Assembly: GCF_000626675.1 (NCBI RefSeq)
Contig: NZ_CP006842.1
Span: 620,001-684,000 of the forward strand
Direction of reading: 5' to 3'
DNA: 64,000 nt
Origin: Corynebacterium glyciniphilum AJ 3170
GTDB lineage: Bacteria > Actinomycetota > Actinomycetes > Mycobacteriales > Mycobacteriaceae
In this document: positions 9,124 through 24,136 of the stretch, one piece after another
Numbering within the stretch: the stretch's first letter is position 1
Layout of the letters: every line of letters begins with the position of its first letter
Translations under genes and position numbers: made by a program
The notes under the pieces: generated by a model
What the model was told of the DNA's origin: nothing
Databases searched by the model: none
The model's input: the letters and a program-made list of their open reading frames with translations, nothing else

Positions 9124-10559
9124 TATGAGACCTCATTTTCCGGACGGACCGTGGTGTGCGAATGGCGCTCCTGTGCCGTCCGCGCGCTGTCGTCGCTGTC
9201 GCTTCGGTCGCCCCCGGTGTTTTTGACGGGGACGAGGAGCTGGCCGCATCCGCGACTGAGACGTGTGAGGACTTCCTCGAGCGGTCCGCGTCCCCTGGCC
9301 AGGCTCCAGGCGGTGGCGAACAGAAGGATCACCACGACCTGCACCAGGAAATACATCGAGGAATGTTCCTCGACGTTGTCGCCGAGAGCGGTGAGGAAGA
9401 GCAGGTGTGTGGTGTACAGGGTCAGCGTCATCGAGCCGGTGGCGATCAACGGGGTGCACAGGTCGTTGAGTGTGCGGGTGATCAGCAGGAACGCCCCGAT
9501 GGTGAGCAGTGCGAGTCCGCTGGAGGCAGCGACGGCGAAGAAGGTGTTGGAGTGGGGGCCGGACGTGGTGAGCCACCACCAGGTGTCGGTGGGTAGGTGG
9601 CCTTCCGGGCCGTAGTCGAGGACCGCCTGGATGTCGTCTGCATCCATTCCGCCGGTGAGTTCGTAGAGTCGGGCGAATCCTCCCGCGTAGTCGATGAGGT
9701 AGGCGGAGATCCCGTATCCGAGCGCGGCGGTGATGCCGCCGTAGACGAGGAGACGGATCTGTGTGACGAGCCAGCGGAGGTTCATCCGGCCTACCGCCAT
9801 GCCGAGGCAGATGTAGCTCATCCAGGTGACCACAGGGTAGGCACCGCCGACCAGGAGTGTGAAGACGGTGTCGGTGGGCATGGTGATGAACGTGCTGAAC
9901 CCGGGATTGTCGAGCGCTGTGTAGCCGTTCCAACGGCTGGTGAGGAAGATCAGGACGGGGCCGACAGTGGCGCAGAGGGTGGCGCACACCAGCAGGCCAC
10001 GGATGCGGAGCCTGGTCAGCGGTACGGCCAGGAGGAACAGGAGACCGTAGAACGGCAGGATGTTGTAGATGGCGGGATCGAGTTCGCTCAGGGCGAGTCC
10101 GAGGCTGAGGATGGCTACGGCCCGCATGGTCAGGGAGACCCGGCTGCGTCGCAGCGCACGGCCGTGGTGGGGGGTTGTGCCTCCCGTGAGGATGGCGACG
10201 GTGATTCCGGCGAGTACTCCGAAGAGTACGGCGGCGTGTCCGGCGAACAGACTCCAGACGAGTGTCGGGCCGTCGGTGACCTCGTTGTATGCAGGCAGCG
10301 TGTGCAGGGCAACCATGCCGAGCAACGCCATGCCGCGGGCAGCGTCGAGTCCGGTGACGCGACGGGGGTCGCCGGACGGCCCGAACGCGGCGTTCTTCGT
10401 CCACCGTGACGGCTCTGGCTCGGGTTCGGGCTCGGGAGGGGGACGCAGGCTGGCGGGGTCGACATCGGCTTCGCCGTCCCAGATGGTGCGTACGTGGGAC
10501 GGGCCCGGTGTAGGCCGGGGTGTGGACGACAGGTGGGAGGCGGGGAGATGGTGGCTCAT
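9123..10559 (-). CDS. DUF418/acyltransferase-like membrane protein in the Pls-type operon
   Basis: The 478-residue protein has an N-terminal Pro/Glu-rich cytoplasmic section of about 75 residues. The family motif TGLDAARGMALLGMVALH follows, and then about ten membrane segments ending in TLYTTHLLFLTAL and RGPLEEVLTRL, the DUF418-type C terminus. It is a paralogue of the protein at 1737-2864. Its ATG overlaps the synthetase stop codon in an ATGA junction, which fixes the start and indicates tight co-expression. Plausible roles are acylation of the synthetase product or its translocation; neither is shown by the sequence. The open frame upstream to 10907 only shadows the synthetase gene. Confidence 0.75.
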   Translation of the reverse strand: MSHHLPASHLSSTPRPTPGPSHVRTIWDGEADVDPASLRPPPEPEPEPEPSRWTKNAAFGPSGDPRRVTGLDAARGMALLGMVALHTLPAYNEVTDGPTLVWSLFAGHAAVLFGVLAGITVAILTGGTTPHHGRALRRSRVSLTMRAVAILSLGLALSELDPAIYNILPFYGLLFLLAVPLTRLRIRGLLVCATLCATVGPVLIFLTSRWNGYTALDNPGFSTFITMPTDTVFTLLVGGAYPVVTWMSYICLGMAVGRMNLRWLVTQIRLLVYGGITAALGYGISAYLIDYAGGFARLYELTGGMDADDIQAVLDYGPEGHLPTDTWWWLTTSGPHSNTFFAVAASSGLALLTIGAFLLITRTLNDLCTPLIATGSMTLTLYTTHLLFLTALGDNVEEHSSMYFLVQVVVILLFATAWSLARGRGPLEEVLTRLSRGCGQLLVPVKNTGGDRSDSDDSARTAQERHSHTTVRPENEVS

Positions 10560-13500
10560 CGTGATTCTTCCAGGGACGCTGACGTGGAGTCTGATGGTCG
10601 TCTGCCAGTTGGGTGGGTGTCTGACACGGTTCCGGTGACGTGGACGACCGGGTTGCCCTCCCACACGGAATCGGACGGCACCGCGTCCTGCCGCAGGACC
10701 AGGGATCCGGGCCTTACGGTGGTCCGTTGTCCCAGGCTTGATCCGGGCAGCATGAAGCTGTTCGGCCCGAGCGTCGCACCGTCGGCGAGGACGACGGGTT
10801 CCAGGGACATCACCCGGTCGTGGAAGAGGTGGGTCTGGAGTACGGTGCCGCGGTTCACCGTGGAGCGGTCCCCGAGACGGATCAGGTCGAATTCGGGCAG
10901 CCACCACGTCTCACACCACACATCCCGTCCGATACGCGTGCCCATCAGGCGTACCCACCAGTTGTAGAGCGGCGAGCCGAGGGACATACGGATCAGCGAG
11001 GGCACGGCGAGGAGTTCAGCGAAGTTGTCGACGAGTTCACCGCGCCAGACGAAGGTCGAGAAGAGGGTGTGCTGTCCAGGACGGAACCTGCCCACGAGCA
11101 TCCATTTGGCCAGCACGGGTACCAGGCTGGCCACCGCGCCGGTGGCCAGGACAATGGGGAAGGACCAGAGGCAGACGGCGAGGATGCCCTCCCGTCCGAA
11201 ACCGGCGTTCATGTAGACCAGCGTCCCGGCCCAGACGATGAACAGGTCGAGGTAGGCGGCGATGATCGGCGGGATGAACCGTCCGGCTTCGACGACGGCG
11301 CGTGCCCCCTTCAACCCCGGGGAAGGGGTGAAGGTGCGCGACGCGTCGGCGTCGATGTGGACGCGGGGGATTTCCCGCGCACTGCGTCCCAGCCAGGACG
11401 ACCCGCGCCCCGGATGGTACGGCGTGGATGACAGGACGGCGACGAGGGACTGTTCGGGGAGATCGTTGTCGGGGCCGACGATGCCGGAGTTGCCGACGAA
11501 AGAACCGTTGCCGAGCACCGTCGTCCCCACGTGGACCCATCCTGAACGGTGTCGGGGCAGGGTGCACAGGGAGTGATCGGCGAGGAAGCAGCGGTCACCG
11601 ACCGACGTCAGATGGGGAATCGTCTCAACGGTCGAGATCTCGGTATTGTCACCCACCCTGGCGCCCAGCAGCCGTAGGAAGGCGGGGGTCAGCCATCCGG
11701 CGTAGATGAAGTACGTGGAGGTCAGGGTTTTCTGCAGCAGCACGTGGGTGAGCCACAGTGCCCAGCCGGTCGTCGAGGCGGTGGGGTAGTACCCCGGCCG
11801 GATCAGGGTGGAGCACAAACGGACGGTGAGGATGACCAACGCCAGCCAGCTGGCGATGGTCAGCAGCGTGAACACGGGTGTCCACGCCGCGAGGACGGGG
11901 AAGACGTCCTCGTATATCTGGAGGTCCACGACGTGGGGGAGGACGAGGAAGAGGCCGGGAAGGAGGGCGATCACCGGCAGCGCGGAGATCCACGCGATAC
12001 CGGCGATGTAGAGCAGACGACGCGGGACAGCTCCTGTGATACTGACTGTTCCGTCGGCGGTTGCCTCGCGTGGGGTGGCTTCCGGCCAGGAGAGGCCGGC
12101 GTCGCCGCGTTCACTGAGCGGGGTGCCGCCCAGGAGTGTCCCGCCGGCGACCTCCCCGGCCACACAGGACCCCGGGAGGATCTCGGCACCGTCCGCGATA
12201 CGGGCACCAGGGGACACGAAGGTACGCAGGCCGATGCGGACGTCCTCACCGATGACGATGGTTCCGACGTGCAGTGTGTCGCCGTCGATCCAGTGTCCGT
12301 TGAGGTCGACCTCGTTTTCGATGGAGACGCCACCACCGATCACGGCGAGCCCGGTGACCGGGGGTAGGGCGTGCAGATCTGTGCCGCGTCCGACCCGGCA
12401 ACCGATCATGCGGTAGAGGGTGGCTGTCATCGGGGTGCCGAGCAGAGGTTCGAGCTTGAGGTAGGTGATGAAACGTTCGGCAGCCCAGATACGCAGATGC
12501 GTCCATCCGCCGCGGAGGTAGGTCCCGGGCCGGATACCGGCGGTCAGGAGCCGCGCGGCGAGAGTGCCCTGGACAACCCTCCCCGGGGTGGAGAACAGGA
12601 CGACCCATCCGACCGCGAGGGGAAGCAGCGGAGGGTCGGGGACCCACCCGGCGCCGAAGAAGAATCCCAGCGCCCAGACGACCAGGAGCGAGCCGATGAC
12701 ATACCGGGCGGCGTTGACCACATAGATCGCGCAGACCACCAGGAACTGGATCACCCCGGACCACCACGGTATTGGTGCGGGGGTCAGGCGTTCCGCCGAC
12801 CTCTGGTCAAGGGTGCCCAGGTAGGACGCCATTGCGTGCAGGGTCGGGTTGTCGTAGAGAGCGCCGATATCGGTGGCGGGGTAGCTGGCCCGCAGGTCGG
12901 CCGCGAGCTTCGCCACGGCCACGGAAGATCCGCCGAGATCGAAGAAGTCTGACTCGGGGTGCAACGGTACAGGCCCGAGCTGGTCGGCCCAGCGGTCGGC
13001 CAACCAGGTCAGTTCCGCCGGGAGCTCACCGGTGTGCGCCGAGTCGGGGAGTGGCCAGGGCAGGGCATTACGGTCGACCTTGCCGGACGTCTTCACGGGG
13101 AGGTCGTCGACAATGCAGAGCGTGGGAACGATCCCGCCCGGCAGGACCGAGCGTAGGTGTGTGCGGGCCTCGGCGAGGTCGAGAGCCTGGTCGGCTACGA
13201 GGTAACCGACGATGACCTCGGAGCCGGTGGGGGTGACCTGCTTGGCCGCAGCTCCGGCATGTACCCCGGGGACTGTCGACAGCGCGCGGTCGATCTCGCC
13301 GAGTTCCATGCGTCGTCCGGCGAATTTGATCTGGTCGTCGGCACGTCCGACGAAGACGAGGCCCTCACGGTCGGCGACCACAAGATCGCCGGTGCGGTAC
13401 GCCCGGTACCACTCCAGTGACGGCAGCGGGGCGTAGACCTCGGCGTCTTTGTCGGGGTCGAGGTAACGGCCGAGGCCGACCCCGGAGATGATGAGTTCCC

Positions 13501-14572
13501 CGGTCTCGCCCCAGCGCACCGGCCGGCCGGTAGTCGGATCCACGACGGCGAGCTTCCACCCGGGGGTCGGGCGGCCGATCCGCACCGTGTCGGTGGTTCC
13601 CGACTCCTCCATCAACTGACCGGTCGCGATCACCGTGGTCTCGGTCGGGCCGTAGGTGTTCCACACTTCCCGCCCGGGACGGGCCAGCCGGTCAGCGAGG
13701 GATCGGGGCAGGGCCTCGCCGCCGAAGATCAACAGGCGGACCGAGGAGAGGATGTCCTCGGACCAGAATGCTGCGAGCGTGGGGACCGTGGAGATCGCGG
13801 TGATCCTGTTGTCGGCGATCCATGCCCCAAGTTCATCGCCTGCGCGTACCACGGCGCGCGGCGCGGCGATGAGCGCGGCACCGTAGCGCCAGGCCAGCCA
13901 CATCTCCTCGCAGGACGCGTCGAATCCGACGGAGAGTCCCGCCATGACACGGTCGCCGGGGCCGAGAGCTTCGATGCCAGGGCCGGCCAGGTACATCCGG
14001 GCCTCAGCGTCGACCAGGGCGGCTGCGGACCGGTGAGACACGGCGACACCCTTGGGTTTTCCGGTGGAACCGGAGGTGAAGATGATCCAGGCGTCGTCTG
14101 TCAGAGAGGGCAGCTCGGGAGCGACGTCGGCGGCGTGCCGGCTCCGGTGGACGGACCGGCGGGTGAGCTGCAGGTCCGCACCGTAGACTGCGGCAACGTC
14201 CGCCTCTTCCCAGACGGTGTCGGCGCGGGTGTCGGGGTCATCCCAGTCGACAGGGACGTAGGCGGCCCCTGCGTGGAGGGTGGCGAGAATTGCGATGTAC
14301 AGGTCGGTGGTGCCGGAGGGGACACGGACACCGACCCGGTCACCGTGGCCTATTCCGGCGTCAGCCAGGCGGGCGACCTGCGTGGTGATACGGGTTGACA
14401 TCTCCTGGTAGGTCAGAGCGCCGTCCGAGCCGACGAGCGCGGTGGCGTCGGGGTGCAGGGAGACCGTTGCGTCGAGAATATCGGTCAATGTACGTGGTTC
14501 GGGAACCTTGTCGACGCCGAACACCGCGAGGGCGGGGTGGTCGCCACCATGGTTCGTCATGGAAGTCATCAC
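10556..14572 (-). CDS. Pls/PosA-type membrane nonribosomal peptide synthetase (candidate poly-lysine synthetase)
   Basis: The 1338-residue protein has the layout of Streptomyces epsilon-poly-L-lysine synthetase Pls. An adenylation domain comes first (A3 core FTSGSTGKPKG about 165-175, GFDAS at 216-220, YGPTETT about 307-313, catalytic Lys498). A carrier domain follows with FFDLGGSS (phosphopantetheine Ser550). Then come six membrane helices in three pairs, each pair followed by a soluble block with hexapeptide-repeat character. There is no condensation or thioesterase domain. By alignment to the GrsA pocket I read the specificity residues as D218 A219 E222 S261 I282 G284 T306 V314 I315 K498, close to the lysine code DAESIGSVCK that I recall for bacitracin synthetase. 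The GTG at 14572 has a weak AGAGAA site; ATG 14569 or 14560 are alternatives. It leads a three-gene operon. Confidence 0.85.
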   Translation of the reverse strand: MMTSMTNHGGDHPALAVFGVDKVPEPRTLTDILDATVSLHPDATALVGSDGALTYQEMSTRITTQVARLADAGIGHGDRVGVRVPSGTTDLYIAILATLHAGAAYVPVDWDDPDTRADTVWEEADVAAVYGADLQLTRRSVHRSRHAADVAPELPSLTDDAWIIFTSGSTGKPKGVAVSHRSAAALVDAEARMYLAGPGIEALGPGDRVMAGLSVGFDASCEEMWLAWRYGAALIAAPRAVVRAGDELGAWIADNRITAISTVPTLAAFWSEDILSSVRLLIFGGEALPRSLADRLARPGREVWNTYGPTETTVIATGQLMEESGTTDTVRIGRPTPGWKLAVVDPTTGRPVRWGETGELIISGVGLGRYLDPDKDAEVYAPLPSLEWYRAYRTGDLVVADREGLVFVGRADDQIKFAGRRMELGEIDRALSTVPGVHAGAAAKQVTPTGSEVIVGYLVADQALDLAEARTHLRSVLPGGIVPTLCIVDDLPVKTSGKVDRNALPWPLPDSAHTGELPAELTWLADRWADQLGPVPLHPESDFFDLGGSSVAVAKLAADLRASYPATDIGALYDNPTLHAMASYLGTLDQRSAERLTPAPIPWWSGVIQFLVVCAIYVVNAARYVIGSLLVVWALGFFFGAGWVPDPPLLPLAVGWVVLFSTPGRVVQGTLAARLLTAGIRPGTYLRGGWTHLRIWAAERFITYLKLEPLLGTPMTATLYRMIGCRVGRGTDLHALPPVTGLAVIGGGVSIENEVDLNGHWIDGDTLHVGTIVIGEDVRIGLRTFVSPGARIADGAEILPGSCVAGEVAGGTLLGGTPLSERGDAGLSWPEATPREATADGTVSITGAVPRRLLYIAGIAWISALPVIALLPGLFLVLPHVVDLQIYEDVFPVLAAWTPVFTLLTIASWLALVILTVRLCSTLIRPGYYPTASTTGWALWLTHVLLQKTLTSTYFIYAGWLTPAFLRLLGARVGDNTEISTVETIPHLTSVGDRCFLADHSLCTLPRHRSGWVHVGTTVLGNGSFVGNSGIVGPDNDLPEQSLVAVLSSTPYHPGRGSSWLGRSAREIPRVHIDADASRTFTPSPGLKGARAVVEAGRFIPPIIAAYLDLFIVWAGTLVYMNAGFGREGILAVCLWSFPIVLATGAVASLVPVLAKWMLVGRFRPGQHTLFSTFVWRGELVDNFAELLAVPSLIRMSLGSPLYNWWVRLMGTRIGRDVWCETWWLPEFDLIRLGDRSTVNRGTVLQTHLFHDRVMSLEPVVLADGATLGPNSFMLPGSSLGQRTTVRPGSLVLRQDAVPSDSVWEGNPVVHVTGTVSDTHPTGRRPSDSTSASLEESR

Positions 14573-14670
14573 GGCGTGGGTTCTCTTTCTGGATTTATGT
14601 GTTCGTTCTCAGAGATCTTCATGCGAACAGTTATGCAAACACGTCGGAGAAAACCCCGGCAACATGATTT

Positions 14671-14700
14671 GTTCAAATGTGGTGTCGGGCTCATTTGAAC
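14671..14700. promoter_or_regulatory. Perfect 9-bp inverted repeat in the shared promoter region
   Basis: GTTCAAATG (14671-14679) and CATTTGAAC (14692-14700) are exact inverted copies separated by 12 bp. They lie in the 268-bp AT-rich gap between the divergent Pls-type operon and the two-component operon, about 100 bp upstream of the first and 140 bp upstream of the second. This is a plausible binding site for the adjacent response regulator or another dimeric regulator. Confidence 0.55.
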
Positions 14701-14840
14701 CGCGCTTTCCTGGTTGGTCGACCGCTCTGAGGTAACGTCTACCTGCACTAAAGCGATTACGGAGTCATTACTGAATGGCAGTTATTATTAGATAATTAAT
14801 GCCCTCCGGGGTATGCTGGTACCCGGAAGGGTGGTTGAAT

Positions 14841-16082
14841 ATGAAAGATTTCTCGTGGGACGAGAAGGGATTCTTTCTCCTCATTCTCCTGTCGGCCCTT
14901 CCCCACTTGTTCTTCCATTACAGCCGTGGTCTGTACGAGGTCGCGCTCATCGCGCTGTTTATCGTTCTTGCCCCGGCAGTGCTGTTCTGGCGGCGACGGC
15001 CCGCAGTCTCCGCGGCGGCCGTGTGGGCGGTCCTCTTCGCCTGGAGTCTGTGGGTCACCTCCGGACCCGTCGATTTCCTGGATCTCGTCCCGTTCGTCCT
15101 CTGTGTGCCTCTGGTGGTCTACGGTCCGGCGAGGTACGCCGACTCCCTGCTGTTCTCCGTCGGGTCGTTGGGCTTGTCGTTGGCATGGGGTGTGCTGACA
15201 CCGGGGGTCCTCCTCGGTGCGCTTGCTCCGGGCGAACCGGTGCCAGACTCCCTGGTGACTGCGGTCGTCCTGATGCAGTGGGTGTTCTCCTGTGGGGTCT
15301 TCGTGATGGGCCATGGACAGCGGCACCAGGAACTGCGTCGTGTGGAGCTGATGAAGGCGCGTGGTCGCGAGGACCGTCTTGCGATGGCGAGGGAGATCCA
15401 CGATGTTCTGTCCCGCAGTCTCACCGTGATCAACGTGCAGGCCACCGCCGGCGCCTCGATGCGGGACATTGACGCTCTCGCCAGGATCAGGGACATCAGC
15501 GGTGGGGCACTCGCGGAAGTGAGGAGCCTGCTGGCGTCATTGAGAGCCACCGGTGACGTGGTCGTCGCCGGAACGCGGAGTAAAGACGACCTTGTCGCCG
15601 CGATGCGGGCGGTGCTTACCGGGTTCGAGGACGTCGGACTGAAGATAGATGCCCGGTTCCCGGCGGCGCCGGACAGCGAGCGGCTGGTGCGGATCGAGTC
15701 GGCGCTGGTTCAGTTCATCCACTACCGCATTCTCGGGGAGGCGCTGACCAATGTGGTGCGTCATCAGGGTCCGGACAGTCATGTCCTGCTGGTCACGGAG
15801 GTGGACTTTCCGGAGAATGTCCTCCGCATCCGTATCGAGAGCTGGGCAGGGTCACAGGAGTTTTCGGCCGCGCCGGGAGTGGGGTCCGGTGAGGGGCTTA
15901 CCGGGCTGCGGGACCGTGTGCACGACATCGGAGGCACGTTGTCCTGGTGGGCGGATGGTGCGGGCGGCTCCCGTTCGGAGCATTTCGTCGTCGAGGCGGT
16001 GATGCCCGTGGTCATGAAACCGAAGCAGGACGCGTCCAGGTGGCGCCCGAGGATGATGAAGGAGAAGTGTCGTGGACGATGA
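14841..16082 (+). CDS. NarL-type sensor histidine kinase
   Basis: The 413-residue protein has about five to six N-terminal membrane segments with short loops (residues 10-155), then a HisKA_3 dimerisation helix with AREIHDVLSRSL and phospho-acceptor His187. The HATPase domain has an N box ILGEALTNVVRH and a glycine box GEGLTGLRDRV. Such DesK/NarL-family sensors with little extracytoplasmic sequence usually sense membrane state or membrane-acting peptides. ATG 14841 follows a GGAAGG/GGTGG-rich site. The gene overlaps its response regulator by 11 bp and is followed by SARP-like and LanC-like genes in one run, which implies an operon devoted to a peptide or envelope signal. Confidence 0.88.
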   Translation: MKDFSWDEKGFFLLILLSALPHLFFHYSRGLYEVALIALFIVLAPAVLFWRRRPAVSAAAVWAVLFAWSLWVTSGPVDFLDLVPFVLCVPLVVYGPARYADSLLFSVGSLGLSLAWGVLTPGVLLGALAPGEPVPDSLVTAVVLMQWVFSCGVFVMGHGQRHQELRRVELMKARGREDRLAMAREIHDVLSRSLTVINVQATAGASMRDIDALARIRDISGGALAEVRSLLASLRATGDVVVAGTRSKDDLVAAMRAVLTGFEDVGLKIDARFPAAPDSERLVRIESALVQFIHYRILGEALTNVVRHQGPDSHVLLVTEVDFPENVLRIRIESWAGSQEFSAAPGVGSGEGLTGLRDRVHDIGGTLSWWADGAGGSRSEHFVVEAVMPVVMKPKQDASRWRPRMMKEKCRGR

Positions 16083-16764
16083 CTGTGTGACGGTGGTGCT
16101 GGCGGATGACCAGCCGCTGATTCTCACCGCATTGGCAGGCATTCTGGACGGTCAGCACGACCTGCAGGTCGTGGCTCAGGTGGAGTGCGGGCCGGCCGCC
16201 GTTGCCGCGGTCCGGGAACACGACGCCGACGTCGCGGTACTGGATGTGGTGATGCCCTGGGGTGGCGGCCTTGAGGCTGCCACAGAGATCCGTGAACATT
16301 CACCACGGACCCGGGTGCTTCTGCTGACCAGTTTCGGGGAGGAGGACATCGTGCATGCGGCGATGGATGTCGGTGTCCAGGGGTTCCTGGTCAAGGGGTG
16401 CAGTGCCGACGATCTGGTGGACGCCGTCCGCAGGATCGCCGCAGGAGGCGCTGTCCTCTCGCCGGAGGTGACCGGCTATGTGGTGGACGGTTACCGGCGA
16501 GGTCCGTCGACAGTGTCCATCCCCGGTGCAGTCGCGCCGGAGGATCTCGACGGACCGTTGACGGCGCGCGAACGCGACGTACTTGCCGGTGTCGCCCGGG
16601 CGCGGACGAATGCGGAGATCGCCGCGGAACTCGTTGTCGCGGAGTCGACGGTGAAGACCTACATCTCCCGGTTGATCTCGAAACTGAAGGCGCGGGACCG
16701 GGTTGGCCTGGCCGTGTGGGCCCACGAGACGGGCTACCTGTCTGACCGGGGGCAGCAGAAGTGA
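16072..16764 (+). CDS. NarL/LuxR-type response regulator
   Basis: The 230-residue protein has a receiver domain with acidic pocket D12/D13, phospho-acceptor Asp58 (VAVLDVVMP) and conserved Lys in FLVKG. A linker of about 50 residues is followed by a LuxR-type helix-turn-helix (LTARERDVLAGVARARTNAE to VKTYISRLISKL). It starts at a GTG 7 nt after GGAG, within the kinase gene, so the pair is translationally coupled. Likely targets are its own operon, the facing peptide genes or the divergent Pls-type operon; none is shown directly. A 143-bp gap separates it from the SARP-like gene. Confidence 0.9.
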   Translation: MDDDCVTVVLADDQPLILTALAGILDGQHDLQVVAQVECGPAAVAAVREHDADVAVLDVVMPWGGGLEAATEIREHSPRTRVLLLTSFGEEDIVHAAMDVGVQGFLVKGCSADDLVDAVRRIAAGGAVLSPEVTGYVVDGYRRGPSTVSIPGAVAPEDLDGPLTARERDVLAGVARARTNAEIAAELVVAESTVKTYISRLISKLKARDRVGLAVWAHETGYLSDRGQQK

Positions 16765-16907
16765 ATCCCCCCAGAGGATGAACGCCGGGCCGGAAATTTC
16801 ATCACCGTGACCGATGTGCGGGGGTCCGTGCCCGCGCGAAGATGGATGACACATCATTTTGTGCCCGTCAGTCCCCTGCCCGTGGAGTGTGAGATGGAGG
16901 AGTACCT

Positions 16908-17393
16908 GTGGATCATCAGCACAAACATCGCGTCAGTATCACCGGACCCCTCCGGATCGACGGTCAGCTTCAGTCGAGCGCCCGCGCGGTCGAGCTGCTG
17001 CATCTCATGACCCATGAGGGGCCGGTGCTCCACCGGAGGGAGGTTGAAAAAGCACTGTACGGAGGTTACTGCTCGCGGTCGTCGCTGTGGTATCCGCTGA
17101 AAGTATGCAGGGATGCCGGGGTCGCTCTCCGCTATGAGTCGGAGAGCCAGACAGTGGTCCTTGACGACGATATCCTTTTCGACGTCGACGTTGCACTGGG
17201 TTACCTGGACCGGGGTGACCTGCGCGCGGCGCTGTGGGTGCTCGGCGGGTGGCCGTCCAGCAAGGGTGCGGGAGTGTACTCGGAGAGACTCGCGGCGCAG
17301 CTGCGTGACGCCATCGCCACGGCTCCGGGAGGTTTCTGCCGTTCAGAGGTGGAGGACGCGTATGAGAGTCTCGACCTCCGGCCGGTCGGGTGA
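16908..17393 (+). CDS. Short SARP-like winged-helix protein
   Basis: The 161-residue product is not a standard family match by eye. Its N-terminal half reads like an OmpR-type winged helix (SARAVELLHLMTHEGPVLHR, then REVEKALYGGY, SSLWYPLKVCRDAGVALRY). The second half begins with FDVDVALGYLDRGDLRAALWVLGGWP, which resembles the start of the bacterial transcriptional activator domain of SARP regulators (DVDVFE...GDLAAAL...GP). Full SARPs are 250 residues or more, so this one is truncated in the activator domain. The GTG at 16908 follows GGAGGAG at about 6 nt. It ends 6 bp before the LanC-like gene, so the two are almost certainly co-transcribed. SARPs often control secondary-metabolite and peptide clusters. 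Confidence 0.55.
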   Translation: MDHQHKHRVSITGPLRIDGQLQSSARAVELLHLMTHEGPVLHRREVEKALYGGYCSRSSLWYPLKVCRDAGVALRYESESQTVVLDDDILFDVDVALGYLDRGDLRAALWVLGGWPSSKGAGVYSERLAAQLRDAIATAPGGFCRSEVEDAYESLDLRPVG

Positions 17394-17399
17394 TCTGAG

Positions 17400-18662
17400 G
17401 TGACAGCGCACTGTGAGGTCGGTGTGTCGTCCCGCCGGATTCCCGGGTTGGCGGACCGTCTGTATGCGGATCTGACGGCACCGGCGAGGATCCGGACGGT
17501 ATCGCGGCAGCCGTTCAAGCGGGACAGCGGCGTGCTCGGAGACGCGTTCACCGCGTTCTCCATGTTTCATTCCACGGCGGAGGAACGGTGGTTGCGGCTG
17601 GCGGAAGACCACATCGACAGACTTGAGAGCGCCGTATATGACCAGCGGGTTGATCGGGTGGGTCTGTCCAACGGGCTGACCGGTCTCCTGTTGTTGCTGG
17701 ACACCGGTGACGACCGGATGACACAACGTCGGCGACTGGTTGAGGTCCTGGAACGGCGGGTCGAGGCGTTGGCGGACAACATCATCATGAAGGTGCGCGG
17801 GGACTCGGGGATGGACCGCCGCGACTACAGCTATGCGACGGGCCTTGCCGGTGTTGCCCACCGGTTCCTCGTGGCCGGTCGTAATGAACGTCTCGCGCAG
17901 CGTATCGCCGACCTCTTCGCCGACCTTTCGGGCCGTCCGTTCCCCTACGGCTTCTGGACTCCGCCGTGCCTTCTGGGGGACCGTGTCCTGGAGCGGGAAC
18001 CTGAGCTGAGTTTCGGTGCGAGGGACCTGGGGTTCGGTATGGGGTTGGCCGGGGTTGTCTCGACACTGCGGGAGGCGGCGACGGTCTTCGGCGGAGGCAG
18101 GTATCTTCATGCCGCCGGCCGCCTGGTCGATGAGATCAGGATCGATATCGATCAGCACCACGGCAGGGGAGTGTCGTCGTACCAGGTTGCACCACTCGCC
18201 GGGGAACAGCCTGCGGCGTCCGCTCCGAGCACCCCGACATGGTCGACCGGCCTGCCCGGCGTGGAGTCGGCCGTGGCGGACAGTCCCTGGCTGATGCAGA
18301 AGTTGTACCCGGGGCTCCACTGCGGTGAGGAGTACCTGGACCCGATGGTCGGGGACTTCCTGCGTCCGGGTGTGTGCAACGGGTTGGCGGGACGGCTGTA
18401 CCTTGCCGATCTCGTGGGCCTTCCGGATGATCCGCGGTGGGATGTCTCCCTGGAGAAGATGCTGCGAGGGTATGTCGACAGTGTCGTCAGCCACGACCCC
18501 GGCTTCTGGGAGGGATACGGGGGAGCCTCCGTCGTCTGGCTGAGCCGACACTGCCCGAAAGGGTACGCACCGACGCTGGCCGTCCTGGGTGCCCATAATT
18601 CGAGACAGTGGAACTCTGAGGGCGTCGGCGGGCTGCCGGGACAGGTCAGGAGAATCCGTTGA
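17400..18662 (+). CDS. LanC-fold protein with degenerate active site
   Basis: The 420-residue protein shows the repeated glycine motifs of the lanthionine cyclase alpha-toroid: GLSNGLTG (88-95), YATGLAG (145-151), GFGMGLAG (211-218), WSTGLPG (281-287), VCNGLAG (325-331) and EGYGGAS (371-377). Compared with NisC, the zinc and catalytic residues are mostly gone: the His of GxAHG is Met214, the first zinc Cys is Ser282, the second is kept as Cys326 and the zinc His is Asn327. A zinc-dependent cyclase reaction is therefore unlikely, and a binding or scaffold role is more plausible. No LanB, LanM, protease or ABC transporter lies nearby. It is convergent with two amphipathic peptide genes that contain Ser/Thr but no Cys. 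The start is GTG 17400; GTG 17424 is an alternative. Confidence 0.72.
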   Translation: MTAHCEVGVSSRRIPGLADRLYADLTAPARIRTVSRQPFKRDSGVLGDAFTAFSMFHSTAEERWLRLAEDHIDRLESAVYDQRVDRVGLSNGLTGLLLLLDTGDDRMTQRRRLVEVLERRVEALADNIIMKVRGDSGMDRRDYSYATGLAGVAHRFLVAGRNERLAQRIADLFADLSGRPFPYGFWTPPCLLGDRVLEREPELSFGARDLGFGMGLAGVVSTLREAATVFGGGRYLHAAGRLVDEIRIDIDQHHGRGVSSYQVAPLAGEQPAASAPSTPTWSTGLPGVESAVADSPWLMQKLYPGLHCGEEYLDPMVGDFLRPGVCNGLAGRLYLADLVGLPDDPRWDVSLEKMLRGYVDSVVSHDPGFWEGYGGASVVWLSRHCPKGYAPTLAVLGAHNSRQWNSEGVGGLPGQVRRIR

Positions 18663-18705
18663 GTGTGTCGCGCTCCGAGGTGTGACGGAGGGCGGTCAGA
18701 AACGA

Positions 18706-18743
18706 CGTACACCCCGCCCGACCGGAGTCGAACGGGGTGTACG
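18706..18743. terminator. Hairpin between the LanC-like gene and peptide A
   Basis: CGTACACCCCG (18706-18716) and CGGGGTGTACG (18733-18743) form a perfect 11-bp stem. It sits between two convergent 3' ends and can end transcription from both sides, although there is no strong T run. A smaller CCCC-TTGC-GGGG hairpin follows at 18753-18764. Confidence 0.6.
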
Positions 18744-18773
18744 AGCACCATTCCCCTTGCGGGGCCTGAGCTA

Positions 18774-18863
18774 TTAGCCGTTGATGGAGCCCACGATGGC
18801 CTGGAAGACGTCAACGAGAGCGGTAGCAACGGTGTTGATGATGGACTGGATGGTCTCGATCAT
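18774..18863 (-). CDS. 29-residue amphipathic peptide A
   Basis: The peptide starts MIETIQSIINTVATALVDVF and ends QAIVGSING. Isoleucine, valine, leucine and phenylalanine at positions 2, 5, 8/9, 12, 16, 19/20 and 23/24 give an amphipathic helix over nearly the whole length. Net charge is about -2, with no Lys, Arg or Cys and no leader or signal sequence. GAAAGG lies 10 nt before the ATG. A copy with the same 5' context lies 308 bp away. Known small leaderless peptides of this type include corynebacterial PorA/PorH channel peptides and staphylococcal phenol-soluble modulins; the acidic charge favours the channel-like comparison. The function is unknown, and the gene faces the LanC-like operon. 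Confidence 0.7.
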   Translation of the reverse strand: MIETIQSIINTVATALVDVFQAIVGSING

Positions 18864-19017
18864 AATGATCAGCCTTTCGGTAGGTGTTGTTGTTGTGCGG
18901 TGCAGTACCGGTGGTGGTTCCGTTCCGCTTCATATATGACAACGGCAGCGCAGAAGAAGTGTTACATCCGAGCAGAAATATTTTCTGATCGGAGCTAAAA
19001 AGGCTTTAGACATGCAA

Positions 19018-19049
19018 GAACCCCGCCCAGCGAGTGCCGGACGGGGTTC
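19018..19049. terminator. Hairpin downstream of peptide B
   Basis: GAACCCCG (19018-19025) and CGGGGTTC (19042-19049) can form an 8-bp stem downstream of the peptide B stop codon on the minus strand. A further small hairpin GACC-CCGGAG-GGTC lies at 19059-19072. This mirrors the hairpin downstream of peptide A. Confidence 0.5.
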
Positions 19050-19081
19050 GGGCCCAATGACCCCGGAGGGTCAAGGATCAA

Positions 19082-19171
19082 CTAGTTGTTGATGGAGCCA
19101 ACGACGTCCTGGAAGACGGAGACGATGGCCTCGGAAACGGTGGTGATGATGCCCTGGATGGTCTCGATCAT
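19082..19171 (-). CDS. 29-residue amphipathic peptide B, paralogue of A
   Basis: The peptide starts MIETIQGIITTVSEAIVSVF and ends QDVVGSINN. It matches peptide A at the first six and most hydrophobic positions. Differences are concentrated on the polar face (S7G, N10T, A13S, T14E, L16I, D18S, A22D), which is the pattern expected if helix amphipathicity is under selection. Net charge is about -3, again without Lys, Arg or Cys. The ribosome site and spacer (CCGAAAGG then GATCAT before the ATG) are shared with peptide A, so the pair arose by tandem duplication including the 5' leader. A separate promoter for each copy is likely because each has its own hairpin downstream. Confidence 0.7.
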   Translation of the reverse strand: MIETIQGIITTVSEAIVSVFQDVVGSINN

Positions 19172-19421
19172 GATGATCTACCTTTCGGTTGAACGTATAC
19201 GGTCTGCGACGCGTCGGCCCGGAAGGCCTTCCGTGTCACACGATTAATAGTAACGGAGACCCATCAATGGCTGTTACATAACAACTTGGTAACGACCGCA
19301 GGGCGGTCGTGTCGGGGGTGGTCGGTGTCAACTGACATGCATTTTCCGCGTTCACCCCGGGGGTGGTTATGTCGGTCAATGTAAGCATTGTCAACCGCCC
19401 GGTCCGGCGATGTAGTCATCA
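19172..19421. other. Non-coding region upstream of peptide B with clustered palindromes
   Basis: I see no gene in these 250 bp. The part nearest peptide B is AT-rich (around 19240-19295) and probably holds its promoter. Further left are short inverted repeats: TGTCA-AC-TGACA near 19326 and CAATG-TAAG-CATTG at 19377-19390. Confidence 0.4.
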
Positions 19422-19427
19422 CTACAT
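19410..19427. repeat. Perfect 7-4-7 palindrome at the end of the acyl-CoA oxidase-like gene
   Basis: ATGTAGT-CATC-ACTACAT overlaps the stop codon of the gene ending at 19422. It has operator-like geometry but lies far from any recognised start; it could act as a weak terminator stem or a regulator site. Confidence 0.4.
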
Positions 19428-21518
19428 GCCGTCGGCGGGGTGCGTCTGCGCCCGTGGCACCATGTCGTCGTAGTCCGTCATCAACGGAACATCCGCGATG
19501 TTCTCCGGCACCGCGAACGCGTCCACCAGTGTCCGTGACCAGGGACCTAGCGAATCCACCAGGTCGTTCAGTGCAGCCCGTGCCGCCTTTGTTCTCGTGC
19601 CCGTCAGCAGGTTCTGCTCCTGGTACCAGCCACTGTGCTCGTGAATGATGCTCAGCACGAACACGTCGCGCACCTGCTCCATGACCTCCTTCGCCTGACC
19701 GTCAGCCAGTTCCGCTTCGGCCTCCAGCATCGCCTCCAGGATGATCCGGTCCACATGCGCCCACGCACACTCCAGGAGATGATCCTGGGCCTTGTCCACC
19801 AGGTTGGCAGCATCCTTGATGTCCATCTTCTGCGCCGGCCGAATCCGGCGAATCAGCGACATCAACAGGCGGTTTTCGCGCTCGGTGAGCAACTCCACCT
19901 GGTTCGCCGGGTCGAAGAGGGACGTTTCTTCCTTATCCGTGAAGGAATCCACCAGGTTCTGGATCAACGTGTCCGCCGCCGTGCGACGCTTCAGCAACGT
20001 GCCGAAGTTGTCCAGACCGAAGCGCACCAACTCCAACGGCTTCAGATCTCCGACCTCGCGGGAGAAGCCGGTCAGCAGTTCTTTAGCCGCCAACTGCATC
20101 ATCACCACGTTGTCGCCCTCGAAGGTGGTGAACACATCCGAATCCGCCTTGAACGTGGTCAACAGGTTCTCCGTCATGTAGCCCGCGCCGCCACATGCCT
20201 CACGGCACTCCTGGATCGTGCGCGTCGCATGAGCGGTGTTCGCTGCCTTCAGGGCCGCTGCATGGGCCTCCAGCTCGCGCTGGTCCCACCGCTGCTCCTT
20301 CGTCATGTCGGTCCGGTCGATCTCGGCACTCTCAAGGTCGTGGATACGCGCGATCAACTGGTTTGACGCCAGCTGCAGGCCGTAGCTGCGGGCAATCAGC
20401 GGGATCAGACGCAAACGGTGTTTACGGTGCTCAATGAGCTTGTTCTCCGGCAGGTCATCGTCTGCAGCGAACTGGCGGCGGAGATTCGCGTACCGGGTCG
20501 CGATCGTCAGAGCGGATCGGGCCGCGGCACCGGAGGCTGCCCCCACGGTGATGCGTCCGCGGATCAGCGCGCCCAGCATGGTGAAGAAGCGAGCCCCGTC
20601 GGACTCGATAGGGGAGGAGTACTCGCCGTCCTCCGAGACGTCCGCGAACCGGTTCAGCAGGTTCTCCCGGGGGACTCGCACATGGTCGAAGGTGAACGTC
20701 CCGTTGTCTACGCCCTTCAGGCCGCCCTTGTGCAGGTGGTCGCCGATACCGACGCCGGGCTTCGCCTTCCCGTCTTCGTCGCGGACCTCCACGACGATGC
20801 AGTGCACCCCGTGCGAATCCCCCAGGTCGCCATCTTCGTTCGGCGTGAACAGCTGGCAGAACACCGCAGCCATACGTGCGTGTTTCGCGGCATTGCCGAT
20901 GTACCACTTCTCTGCCGAGGCGACGGGGGTGTTGATCACGAACTCCTGGGTGTCCCGGTCATAGACGGCGGTGGTCTCCACGGACTGGACGTCCGACCCG
21001 TGCCCGCGTTCCGTCATCGCGAAAGATCCGAGGGTGCGCAGCTCCATGATGTCCTTGATGAGCGGGATGTGGCGCTCGGTCCCGAGATTTTCCACAGCGC
21101 CACCCCACAGCCCCCACTGCACCCCGGCCTTGACCATCAGTGACAGGTCAGCGCCACCCACCGCTTCAATTGCGGACAGCGTGGCACCGAGATCACCGGT
21201 TCCACCGTGATCCTTGTGGAATGTTCCCCGGGGCGCGCCCGTCTCGAGCATGTCGGACATTTGAGACAGGGTTCGTTCCCGCGCTTCGTCCATGCTCAGT
21301 GTGTCATCGGGGTAGAGGTTCTTCTCCGCGATCAACGCGCGGGTCTCGTTTTTCACATCCGCCCAACGGCCGTCCAGGATCTCCTGGAGTTCGGCGGCCA
21401 CGGCCTTGCGGACTGCGCGGTCCGCCTGATCACGCAACTTCGCCGGACGGTCGTTGCCGCGGCGGGTCAGACTCGCCGCGATCTTCGTGGTGTCGGGGGT
21501 CTTGTCAGTGTGTGCCAT
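19422..21518 (-). CDS. Acyl-CoA oxidase/dehydrogenase-family flavoprotein
   Basis: At 698 residues this is much longer than ordinary acyl-CoA dehydrogenases (about 390) and matches the acyl-CoA oxidase length. After a helical N terminus come the FAD/substrate motifs GSFAMTERGHGSDVQ (about 167-181) and SAEKWYIGNAAKHA. The dehydrogenase helical domain has ECREACGGAGYM and the catalytic segment FTTFEGDNVVMMQLAAKEL with the expected base Glu in FEGDN. A C-terminal extension of about 220 residues resembles the second helical domain of acyl-CoA oxidases. It would catalyse the first step of fatty acyl-CoA beta-oxidation, with oxygen or another electron acceptor. It is divergent from an MFS gene by 63 bp; co-regulation is possible but not shown. 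Confidence 0.82.
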   Translation of the reverse strand: MAHTDKTPDTTKIAASLTRRGNDRPAKLRDQADRAVRKAVAAELQEILDGRWADVKNETRALIAEKNLYPDDTLSMDEARERTLSQMSDMLETGAPRGTFHKDHGGTGDLGATLSAIEAVGGADLSLMVKAGVQWGLWGGAVENLGTERHIPLIKDIMELRTLGSFAMTERGHGSDVQSVETTAVYDRDTQEFVINTPVASAEKWYIGNAAKHARMAAVFCQLFTPNEDGDLGDSHGVHCIVVEVRDEDGKAKPGVGIGDHLHKGGLKGVDNGTFTFDHVRVPRENLLNRFADVSEDGEYSSPIESDGARFFTMLGALIRGRITVGAASGAAARSALTIATRYANLRRQFAADDDLPENKLIEHRKHRLRLIPLIARSYGLQLASNQLIARIHDLESAEIDRTDMTKEQRWDQRELEAHAAALKAANTAHATRTIQECREACGGAGYMTENLLTTFKADSDVFTTFEGDNVVMMQLAAKELLTGFSREVGDLKPLELVRFGLDNFGTLLKRRTAADTLIQNLVDSFTDKEETSLFDPANQVELLTERENRLLMSLIRRIRPAQKMDIKDAANLVDKAQDHLLECAWAHVDRIILEAMLEAEAELADGQAKEVMEQVRDVFVLSIIHEHSGWYQEQNLLTGTRTKAARAALNDLVDSLGPWSRTLVDAFAVPENIADVPLMTDYDDMVPRAQTHPADGM

Positions 21519-21581
21519 ACCACTCGATATTACGTGGGAATCAGGTCCTCGGTGAGCGGTCGGACATCATGAGGTCCTACC

Positions 21582-22865
21582 ATGTGGGGCATGACCGAGA
21601 ACGAGCGCAATGAGCAGGTTCCCTCATTGAACCCGCACCACCAACAGGCCGGACGCACGTCCCGCTACTCCAAGGCCTGGCTATTCGTGGCCTTCGCCGT
21701 GTTCAGCGTGGCGTGGGGCGGTAATGAAGCGACCCCCATGCTCGTCTTCTACCGCCAGGAAGCCGTATTCAGTGAGGTCTTCGTCGACTCCTTGCTGGTG
21801 TCCTACGCTGTCGGCATCATTGCCGGGCTGTTGATCTGTGGTCCTCTGTCGGACCGCTTCGGTCGCAAGGCCGTGATGCTCCCGGCACCGGCAATTGCTC
21901 TGTTGGGAAGCGTATTCATCGCTCTCGGTGAAACCACCGAGACGGTCATGTTCATCGGGCGGATCCTTGCCGGGCTTGCCGTCGGTATCGCGATGTCGGT
22001 CGGAGGCTCCTGGATCAAAGAACTCTCCACTCCGTCGTTCGACCCCGCCGCGGTGCCTTCATCCGGGGCCAAACGCGCGACGATGTCGTTGACCGCTGGT
22101 TTCGGACTCGGCGCGGGTCTGGCTGGTGTCCTGGCGGAATGGGGGCCCATTCCCGGGCAGCTGCCCTATATCGTGCACTGTGTTATTTCCGTCGTCGCGC
22201 TCGCCGGCCTGATGACGGTGCCTGAGACCCGCCAGTCCGCACATCTGAAGGTGAAGGGCTCCTTCTGGTCCGACATCCTTGTCCCGACGATCACGCACCC
22301 GCGGTTCCTTACCGTGGTTGCACCGATCGCGCCGTGGGTGTTCGGCGCTGCGGGAGTGGCCTACGCCATCACACCGCGCCTGGTCCAGGACCAGGTGGAC
22401 GTGCCCGTCGCCTTCTCTGGTCTACTCACCGTCATCGCGTTGGCGTCTGGCTTTACGATTCAGCAGTTCGGGCCCCGGATCAATACCGAGCACAATGCGC
22501 GCGGTCCGATCGTCGCGTTGATCCTCGTGATCGTCGGCATGGCGGTCGCCACCGTCACCGCGGTCGACATCGCGGTGTGGAGCGCCGTCATCGTCGCCAT
22601 CGTCCTCGGCGCCGCCTACGGACTGTGCCTGATCAGTGGGCTGACTGAGGTGCAGCGGATTGCAGGGCCGGATGACCTGGCGGGATTGACCGCTGCGTAC
22701 TACACGTTGACCTACATCGGTTTCTTCTTCCCGATGATCCTCACACGGCTGTCCTCCACGTTCACCTATCCCGAGATGCTCGGTGCGGGGATCGTGGTCG
22801 CCGTGGTCTTCCTCGTGATCGTCACTGTGTTCTCGCGGAAGAATCTGCCGTCGACGGGGGAGTAA
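21582..22865 (+). CDS. Major facilitator superfamily transporter
   Basis: The 427-residue protein has about twelve membrane helices and the MFS A motif GPLSDRFGRKAVML between helices 2 and 3. A long, partly polar loop around residues 130-165 follows the GRILAGLAVGIAMSVGGSWIKE helix. Helix breaks and loop charges fit an efflux or metabolite carrier, but the substrate cannot be read. ATG 21582 follows GAGG at 7 nt. The 3' end overlaps the convergent flippase-like gene by 44 bp, so neither gene has its own terminator there. The divergent gene encodes an acyl-CoA oxidase-like enzyme. Confidence 0.85.
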   Translation: MWGMTENERNEQVPSLNPHHQQAGRTSRYSKAWLFVAFAVFSVAWGGNEATPMLVFYRQEAVFSEVFVDSLLVSYAVGIIAGLLICGPLSDRFGRKAVMLPAPAIALLGSVFIALGETTETVMFIGRILAGLAVGIAMSVGGSWIKELSTPSFDPAAVPSSGAKRATMSLTAGFGLGAGLAGVLAEWGPIPGQLPYIVHCVISVVALAGLMTVPETRQSAHLKVKGSFWSDILVPTITHPRFLTVVAPIAPWVFGAAGVAYAITPRLVQDQVDVPVAFSGLLTVIALASGFTIQQFGPRINTEHNARGPIVALILVIVGMAVATVTAVDIAVWSAVIVAIVLGAAYGLCLISGLTEVQRIAGPDDLAGLTAAYYTLTYIGFFFPMILTRLSSTFTYPEMLGAGIVVAVVFLVIVTVFSRKNLPSTGE

Positions 22866-24087
22866 GCGCCGGCCGGTATGTCAGCACCGCGAGATGAACA
22901 ACTACTCCCGCCAGCGGTGCCAGCCCCAGGGCAAGGAGTGCGCGGGCCTCCGGCGATGCGTCGATGAGCAGGAGACAGACAGCGACAACCGTCGCCACGG
23001 CCCAGCCGGCCAGGTACAGGGAATGGCGCTCTGCCGCATGCGCGGCCGAACCGGTCACCATCAGCAGTGCCGTCGACCCTGAGGCCACAGTCAATGAGGC
23101 GAGCACCAGTGGCGAGCTGACGAGTTCAACATCGAAGAACAGCAGCATCAACGGGCGCGCCAGCCAGTACGCGGCCACCCCGCCGACCGCTGCAGTCGAC
23201 ACAATGATCGCAGACGGTAACGCGCAGGCACGGAGTATCCGGTCGCGGCGTTCCGTGAAGTGCACGATCAACGCCGGTTGAAAACGTTGCAGGGGGACTA
23301 ACAGCGGCGCGCGGGTCAGTGTCACCGCCGTGATGACGGCGGCGAGCGTTCCGGGGGCGACACCTGTGCCGGAGGTGAAAGTGATCAACACCGGGAATCC
23401 GGTGATCAACACCGCATTCGCGCCCGACGCGAGCATCGCTTTGATCGTCCGGCGGATAAACTCGCCGGTCGCGACGTCCCCCACCTCGCGCAGCACAGCA
23501 CGCTGAGCGGGGACGAAAAACAGCAGACCCAGCCATGTCGCGGCACCGATGACGGTGACCAGCAGGAAGGCGAGCAGGTGCCAGCCCAGTGCCCAGGCGA
23601 CGAGGGCCAGCAGAATACGTACTGCACTGTCCACGCTGATCAACCAGGCGAACGAGGTCCAGCGGGTGGTCGCAGACAACAGGCCGCAGACAGCCGCCTG
23701 GAAGGTGTAGGACGCCAGCCCTCCTGCCAACAGGACGACCCCGGCAACCTCGAGGTTCTGCCCGTCGGGAAGGGTCCTTCCCGACCACAGTGGTGCGAGC
23801 GCCACTGCGAGGAACCCGACAATGCCGGCGAAGCCGACCGCGACGGTCATCGGGCGCGCGCAGGAGGAAGGGGCGGGCAACGTGCGGCCCGACGGGGTGT
23901 GGCGTGCGGCTACTGAACGCGTGGTCTCCTGCAGGAGTCCGTCGATCAGGCCGGCGAGGGCGAAGAACAGCCCCCAGAACACGGAGAATGCTTCATAACT
24001 GACTGTGTCGAGTGCACGGCCGGCCACGACAATCACCGCATAACCGGAAACCGCCACCACGAGAGTGGCGGCGGACAGGGCCCTCAC
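22822..24087 (-). CDS. Polysaccharide flippase-like membrane protein (MOP superfamily)
   Basis: The 421-residue protein has about twelve membrane helices arranged in two similar halves. Its first helix pair (ATLVVAVSGYAVIVVAGRAL and FSVFWGLFFALAGLIDGLLQE) and repeated Pro/Gly kinks resemble Wzx/MurJ-like lipid-linked sugar flippases. There is no long soluble domain. A cell-envelope role is plausible because the next upstream minus-strand features are a mycolyltransferase and a porin-like peptide, but the mycolyltransferase gene is only 49 bp upstream in the same direction and the two may be co-transcribed. The start is a GTG with a weak ribosome site and is uncertain. The end overlaps the MFS gene. 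Confidence 0.6.
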   Translation of the reverse strand: MRALSAATLVVAVSGYAVIVVAGRALDTVSYEAFSVFWGLFFALAGLIDGLLQETTRSVAARHTPSGRTLPAPSSCARPMTVAVGFAGIVGFLAVALAPLWSGRTLPDGQNLEVAGVVLLAGGLASYTFQAAVCGLLSATTRWTSFAWLISVDSAVRILLALVAWALGWHLLAFLLVTVIGAATWLGLLFFVPAQRAVLREVGDVATGEFIRRTIKAMLASGANAVLITGFPVLITFTSGTGVAPGTLAAVITAVTLTRAPLLVPLQRFQPALIVHFTERRDRILRACALPSAIIVSTAAVGGVAAYWLARPLMLLFFDVELVSSPLVLASLTVASGSTALLMVTGSAAHAAERHSLYLAGWAVATVVAVCLLLIDASPEARALLALGLAPLAGVVVHLAVLTYRPALTPPSTADSSARTQ

Positions 24088-24136
24088 GGGGCCGGTTGTT
24101 TTCCGGGCGACGGTGCGAATCGGAGGTCAGACCGAG

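Follow-up and report, generated by a model that had tools for sequence, protein, structure and literature searches.

Separate distribution of a LanC-like operon with a degenerate zinc site and its neighboring twin peptide genes in Corynebacterium

INTRODUCTION

Do a small regulatory operon and the two peptide genes that it faces form one system? The question is raised by a locus of Corynebacterium glyciniphilum AJ 3170, which we examined in a window of 64,000 nucleotides (positions 620001-684000 of contig 1; the genome has 3.57 Mb in two contigs). Genes for a NarL-type histidine kinase (HK), a response regulator (RR), a SARP-like winged-helix protein (X), and a LanC-like protein run together there and converge on two tandem genes, w1 and w2, for 29-residue acidic amphipathic peptides. 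A first-pass annotation had described these six genes and had offered, as a possible reading, a system for membrane-peptide sensing and for maturation or escort of the peptides. All six genes are present in the window sequence as first described, and their identities were confirmed. The literature searched on LanC-like proteins, lanthipeptides, zinc-less orphan LanC, porins, and phenol-soluble modulins in Corynebacterium gave, among the entries listed, no published account of the locus and no match to the start letters of the peptides; most subscription journals lie outside its coverage.

RESULTS

The operon and the peptide genes are distributed separately

LanC and peptide profile searches covered 242 Corynebacterium genomes. 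The window genome (G000) was compared with its relatives G003, G039, G249, G021, G188, G273, G168, G270, and G024. G039 (an assembly 94% complete, in 130 contigs) carries the operon, with a LanC 47% identical to that of the window, and has no peptide-profile match at an E value of ≤0.1. G249 carries 13 peptide genes, including two at the same place as w1 and w2 (place w), and has no LanC match at an E value of ≤0.01. At the G249 locus, the synthetase-like gene that flanks the operon (described below) aligns with the window protein from residue 467 onward only, two peptide genes follow, and no match to HK, RR, X, or LanC was found. Since G003 has the operon and is 93 to 95% identical on both sides of it, the operon was likely deleted in G249. 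Within the window genome, seven of the nine peptide copies lie at least 20 kb from the single LanC gene, and codon adaptation differs between the peptides (mean of 0.72) and the operon genes (0.38 to 0.43).

The operon (unit A) and the peptide genes (unit B) are thus distributed separately, and their convergence in G000 and G003 is most simply explained as synteny. On balance, we favor the view that they are two neighboring, separate units with the origins and roles proposed below.

Probable origin of the operon in a class I lanthipeptide cluster

The features of unit A are as follows.

14732..14757, plus strand: SigD-type promoter-like GTAACG-N17-GAT (motif match only; 109 bp before the kinase start)
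14841..16082, plus strand: NarL-type sensor histidine kinase, HK (HisKA_3, E value of 1.3e-9)
16072..16764, plus strand: NarL/LuxR-type response regulator, RR (Response_reg and GerE)
16908..17393, plus strand: SARP-like winged-helix protein X, 161 residues, shortened BTAD (fold match)
17400..18662, plus strand: LanC-like protein (Pfam LANC_like), degenerate zinc site with WSTG and CNG for WC-G and CHG

The LanC-like protein scores above the LANC_like cut-off and matches 8byk (E value of 5e-12) and NisC 2g02 (E value of 3e-6) by profile; its AF2 model is helical throughout, with a pLDDT of 76. X has no Pfam match at an E value of ≤1, and its predicted model resembles the SARP-type regulators AfsR and EmbR over 144 to 146 residues, with BTAD shortened. 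Because X stops at residue 161, the full BTAD and further domains of those regulators are absent, in agreement with the truncated SARP-like protein first described.

The LanC profile matched eight of the 242 genomes (G000, G003, G039, G021, G188, G273, G168, and G270); an earlier search with one LanC sequence, run against 151 relatives from 36 genera, had given six matches, two of them weak. Pfam found LanB in five of the eight (G021, G188, G273, G168, and G270, the last by its C-terminal domain). In G188, G273, and G168, a nisin-like precursor is followed by X, LanB, LanC, ABC ATPase, ABC permease, and further genes, after which come HK-like and RR-like frames and then two ABC-like frames. 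G021 has X, LanB, LanC, ABC ATPase, and a permease-like frame; its nisin-like precursor gene lies farther along on the opposite strand. The G270 locus holds the C-terminal part of LanB, LanC, and ABC, and the contig ends within LanB. The nisin-like precursors of G021, G188, G273, and G168 (at L010, L149, L150, and L151) have a CTPGCITG core. Nisin-like clusters in Corynebacterium have been published, with flavucin from C. freiburgense as described in PMC12506125.

All four proteins of unit A have relatives in these clusters. X stands directly before LanB in G021, G188, G273, and G168, and the window protein is 51% identical to its homologue in G021 and 30 to 31% identical to those in the other three; LanC has homologues in the same four loci. 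HK, which is 71% identical in G003 and 43% in G039, is 30 to 35% identical over its C-terminal part to the kinases of the lanthipeptide loci in G188, G273, G168, and G270, and RR is 40 to 44% identical to the regulators there. This kinship points to a class I lanthipeptide cluster as the probable ancestor of unit A and bears out the earlier suspicion that the four-gene run is tied to ribosomal peptide loci. Unlike the intact clusters, the run in the window, G003, and G039 is only HK, RR, X, and LanC, without ABC genes. LanB (PF04738) gave no matches in G000, G003, G039, and G249 and two matches in the positive control, G021. The nisin-like precursor motif, found in four of the five cluster loci, was absent from window positions 9000-25000 and from the loci of G003, G039, and G249; other precursor types fall outside this motif. 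The simplest reading is that the biosynthetic genes around X and LanC were lost alongside the zinc site.

The LanC zinc site is degenerate to varying degrees among relatives

We compared zinc motifs across 13 homologues; the protein search behind the P rows named below scored the 8000 candidates that had the most words in common. Working from NisC, we take the WC-G and CHG residues to be the zinc ligands. All five LanB-linked LanC proteins retain both motifs. The LanB-less genomes have WSTG and CNG (window), WATG and CNG (G003), and WSRG and RNG (G039), so that two of three ligands are replaced in the window and three of three in G039. Among the metagenome relatives P0003-P0007, P0007 shows WFSG and an unaltered CHG and has lost one ligand. 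In 8byk and 3t33, the residues aligned with the window motifs are WC-G and CHG; the zinc site of the window LanC is lost. In a midpoint-rooted tree, made without the window protein (P0001) and a near-copy of the G003 row (P0002), a branch with support of 99/98 split the LanB-linked from the LanB-less rows.

The operon genes are under purifying selection

Between G000 and G003, the nonsynonymous and synonymous rates (dN/dS) were 0.31/1.45 for LanC, 0.18/1.19 for X, 0.20/1.22 for HK, and 0.13/1.12 for RR. The resulting ratios (about 0.21, 0.15, 0.16, and 0.12, respectively) are rough because dS is near or above 1.1. Genes outside the operon were slower: 0.012/0.51 for ACOX, 0.027/0.51 for MFS, and 0.12/0.93 for the synthetase-like gene. 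The four operon genes thus evolve fast, under purifying selection, and for that reason a non-catalytic signaling role of unit A is likelier than decay.

Divergent from the kinase gene lies a gene for a 1338-residue AMP-binding/PP-binding/hexapeptide synthetase-like protein (10556-14572, minus strand). It is present in G003, stands at a contig end in G039, and lacks its first 466 residues in G249; it is a possible target of the two-component pair. The SigD-like motif recurs in G003, identical and at the same distance from the kinase, and is absent in G039. The SigD consensus is given as GTAAC(A/G) and GAT in PMC6338062.

w1 and w2 are members of a dispersed, multicopy peptide family

The features of the twin peptide genes are as follows.

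18710..18739, minus strand: hairpin 3' of w1, between w1 and the LanC-like gene (read from the sequence; fails the hairpin-plus-T-run scan)
18774..18863, minus strand: w1, 29-residue acidic amphipathic peptide (E value of 3e-18; hydrophobic moment of 0.46 versus 0.15 in shuffles)
18864..18879, minus strand: w1 Shine-Dalgarno region CGAAAGG (AAGG/GGAG-type signal)
18934..18965, minus strand: w1 promoter-like GTAACA block (leader motif)
19018..19049, minus strand: w2 terminator-like hairpin (hairpin-plus-T-run scan)
19082..19171, minus strand: w2, 29-residue acidic amphipathic peptide (E value of 5e-18)
19247..19277, minus strand: w2 promoter-like GTAACA-N17-GTTACTAT block (read from the sequence)

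The peptide profile matched 27 of the 242 genomes at an E value of ≤0.1. The window genome has nine copies at E values of ≤1.3e-14, with noise from 0.36; G003 has seven, and G249 has 13 at E values of ≤4e-10 plus one at 0.05. G024 has a single match (6.7e-6), and 23 further genomes have one or two weak matches each, mostly within long frames. Places w, t, and b share neighbor genes across G000, G003, and G249, and extra copies stand at place c (G000 and G249) or as single genes at other sites. In G249, one single copy (L068) has endolysin, tail, and holin-like genes as prophage neighbors, another (L069) has endolysin and tail genes, and a third (L070) lies near an integrase-like fragment. A separate, uncharged hydrophobic peptide of 33 residues with its own start signal adjoins the peptide pair and is identical in G003 (L008:7659-7760) and G249 (L065:17653-17754); the window yielded no such peptide.

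The nine local peptides are short, leaderless, and amphipathic: 29 to 37 residues, with charges of -1 to -5 and hydrophobic moments of 0.35 to 0.47 versus 0.13 to 0.15 in shuffles (P ≤ 0.003). Position 26 is serine in 28 of 29 family members. None of the 29 contains cysteine, as had been noted for w1 and w2, and on this ground we rejected them as lanthipeptide precursors.

Most of the peptide genes carry recognizable expression signals. A start signal of the AAGG or GGAG type precedes 25 of 29, and a hairpin with a T-run follows the stop codon in 27 of 29 (w1 lacks the T-run in the scan). GTAAC[AG] occurs in 19 of 29 leaders (shuffle mean of 2.1, maximum of 7) and an ACCCC-GGGGGTA-like palindrome upstream of the promoters in 16 of 29 (shuffle mean of 0.4, maximum of 4); both counts are descriptive, since the motifs came from these very sequences and orthology links many of the leaders. 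A stricter pattern, GTAACR-N17-GGTANNNT, has seven sites in the genome, four of them before peptide genes, with three control hits. SigD control of the peptides was rejected: the -35 fits, but the -10 GAT does not. A palindrome like those before peptide genes, ACCCCGGGGGTGGTTATG, stands at 19354-19371 on the plus strand with no peptide seen after it, and it is perhaps a relic promoter. An element related to the leader palindrome, GGGGTATG, lies at 14801-14815, directly upstream of the kinase gene. The leader palindrome and this element resemble CsoR-type operators.

Codon adaptation of the peptides (range of 0.58 to 0.84) compares with 0.73 in 29-codon-scale windows of reference genes and with 0.53 (standard deviation of 0.03) in amino-acid-matched draws, none of 2000 of which was as high as the peptide mean. 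The reference set comprises three genes, two for GroEL and one that we take to be ClpC-like. The w2 protein is identical in G249 and has one residue changed in G003, with no synonymous change in either. Position-matched pairs gave a synonymous difference (pS) of 0.13 and a nonsynonymous difference (pN) of 0.04, where place-c pairs were matched by peptide likeness only; paralogs gave a pS of 0.25 and a pN of 0.22. Selection on the peptide protein is thus poorly resolved, since several pairs lack any synonymous change and pS is close to pN in paralogs. Codon adaptation or gene conversion may lie behind the low synonymous change.

The peptides compared with PorA and PorH

PorA/PorH channels are built of leaderless helical peptides of fewer than 60 residues, encoded between groEL2 and ppk2 (PMC5944148, PMC3792995). 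The subunits compared here run from 40 to 57 residues, PorACj having 40, and PorACur was also among those compared (PMC3792995, PMC12632848). As described in PMC11066868, the porins are O-mycoloylated on serine, at serine- and glycine-rich motifs. Our peptides share with these subunits their shortness, alpha-helical amphipathic character, want of a presequence, and adjacency, PorH and PorA being neighbors; they differ in being 29 to 37 residues long, dispersed, multicopy, and not encoded between groEL2 and ppk2.

The gap between groEL2 and ppk2 in G000, G003, and G249 measures 167 to 169 bp and holds no peptide with a start signal. In a first set of 12 genomes, seven had gap peptides of 34 to 73 residues, G003, G249, G024, and G021 had none, and the locus of G039 was incomplete. 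Of the 30 loci closest in ppk2, 16 had a peptide of 36 to 70 residues with a start signal in the gap and 14 did not (G209 and G260 included); groEL2 of G237 lay outside the flank, and the start-signal filter may miss some peptides. With 14 of 30 loci lacking a gap peptide, porin loss as a specific signature of the peptide-bearing genomes is weakened, and the link between an empty porin interval and the peptide family is suggestive and not specific.

DISCUSSION

We propose that unit A, having lost the precursor, LanB, and ABC genes, and two of three zinc ligands of LanC besides, was kept as a regulatory module. The kinase would sense an envelope or peptide signal, and the NarL-type regulator and the SARP-like protein would control transcription, with the synthetase-like gene and their own operon as a first guess at targets. 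LanC would then be a non-catalytic peptide-binding or adaptor protein. CA_C0082 of Clostridium acetobutylicum, a zinc-less LanM-like agr effector, is reported to act in the output of quorum sensing and to be dispensable for active signal peptide (PMC10301443). As in unit A, a gene related to lanthipeptide synthetases stands close to one for a response regulator; the zinc motif and, by that account, other lanthipeptide genes are missing. It differs in being a class II LanM-like protein beside agr in Clostridium; the LanC of the window belongs to class I and is accompanied by a NarL-type pair and the SARP-like X. It serves as a precedent, in that a zinc-less relative of this kind is able to act in signaling.

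For unit B, the data point to a dispersed multicopy family of leaderless acidic amphipathic helices, probably highly expressed. The peptides may be exported without a signal peptide and take their place in the mycomembrane as PorA and PorH do, perhaps with O-mycoloylation on the near-invariant Ser26 as a candidate site. We place this mycomembrane role ahead of the other readings considered, while giving it slightly less than an even chance.

A single system, with the peptides as the signal for the kinase, under the control of the regulators, and matured or escorted by LanC, is very improbable. The convergent arrangement common to G000 and G003 speaks for such a single system, as do a GGGGTAT element found upstream of the kinase gene in G000, G003, and G039, which in G000 and G039 also has a CCC arm, and the related palindrome before 16 of 29 peptide genes. 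We rejected the locus as one system because G249 has its 13 peptide genes without LanC and G039 has the operon without a peptide match; seven of the nine window-genome copies lie elsewhere, and cysteine is missing throughout. A check set beforehand, under which the single system would fail if peptide genes were missing beside orthologous LanC operons, went against it: G039 has none matched at the E value used. Together with the lost zinc ligands and the unlike codon adaptation, this leaves the peptides improbable as substrate, signal, or client of LanC. Unit A could alternatively be what is left of a lanthipeptide cluster, without function and in decay, given the loss of the other cluster genes and of the zinc ligands, the fast divergence of LanC, the low codon adaptation, and the absence from G249. 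We consider this unlikely: in G000 and G003, all four genes have unbroken frames and dN/dS ratios of 0.12 to 0.21, and G039 keeps the same gene set at 43 to 66% identity, too distant for unselected frames.

As for the peptides, phenol-soluble-modulin-like surfactants and leaderless bacteriocins are also short, leaderless, and amphipathic, and multicopy, tandem genes with high codon adaptation would suit secreted products of this kind. Such peptides, in place of mycomembrane subunits, have a modest share of the probability: ours are acidic, their near-invariant Ser26 would be unexplained, and no exporter or immunity gene was seen by eye to recur beside the copies. A type I toxin-like (TisB/Ibs/Ldr kind) or holin-like membrane peptide, possibly spread by phage, seems less probable still. 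Small hydrophobic peptides in tandem intergenic copies would fit it, and the prophage endolysin and holin-like genes next to two of the G249 copies leave room for a phage link. Against it, start signals at 25 of 29 genes and high codon adaptation suggest efficient translation, positions 14400-19500 gave no Rfam match at gathering cut-offs (which cover known RNAs only), and tblastn of one 29-residue peptide gave no match in phage or plasmid collections at an E value of ≤10.

Combining our preferred readings of both units gives a clade in which 7 to 13 dispersed mycomembrane peptides of about 29 residues would replace the groEL2-locus porin, with a non-enzymatic LanC as signaling partner of a two-component/SARP module. 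We consider this combination less likely than not. Several points weigh against the two-unit explanation favored here. LanC is 63% identical between G000 and G003, compared with 82 to 98% for genes outside the operon, so that slow decay is conceivable. Class III cyclases function without the zinc motif, according to PMC10301443, and motif loss is therefore no proof that LanC is inactive. Of the 27 other sampled loci, 11 likewise have nothing in the porin interval, so its emptiness is not specific to peptide-bearing genomes. Profiles of 20 peptides (A4) and 12 porin-locus peptides (A5) showed no homology (hhalign probability of 7%; short profiles give little power), and 29 residues is below the 40 to 57 of the porin subunits compared. 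Nor would copies beside prophage lysis genes, as in two cases in G249, be predicted for a porin family.

Were the combined reading true, the peptides would be shorter than known porin subunits, and LanC would be a class I counterpart of the LanM-like agr effector described from Clostridium. The adjacency of operon and peptides is probably incidental, and what remains of interest is a lanthipeptide cyclase without a zinc site that still has its regulators, along with a new family of multicopy peptides whose host genomes have no porin gene where one is usually found. The operon forms a natural series, with the zinc site intact in G021 and G188, one ligand lost in P0007, two in the window, and three in G039, which lets one ask how a biosynthetic cyclase turns into something else, perhaps a signaling protein. 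The peptide family, in turn, offers a candidate, open to testing, for a channel or coat of the outer membrane in Corynebacterium species that lack a porin gene at the usual place.

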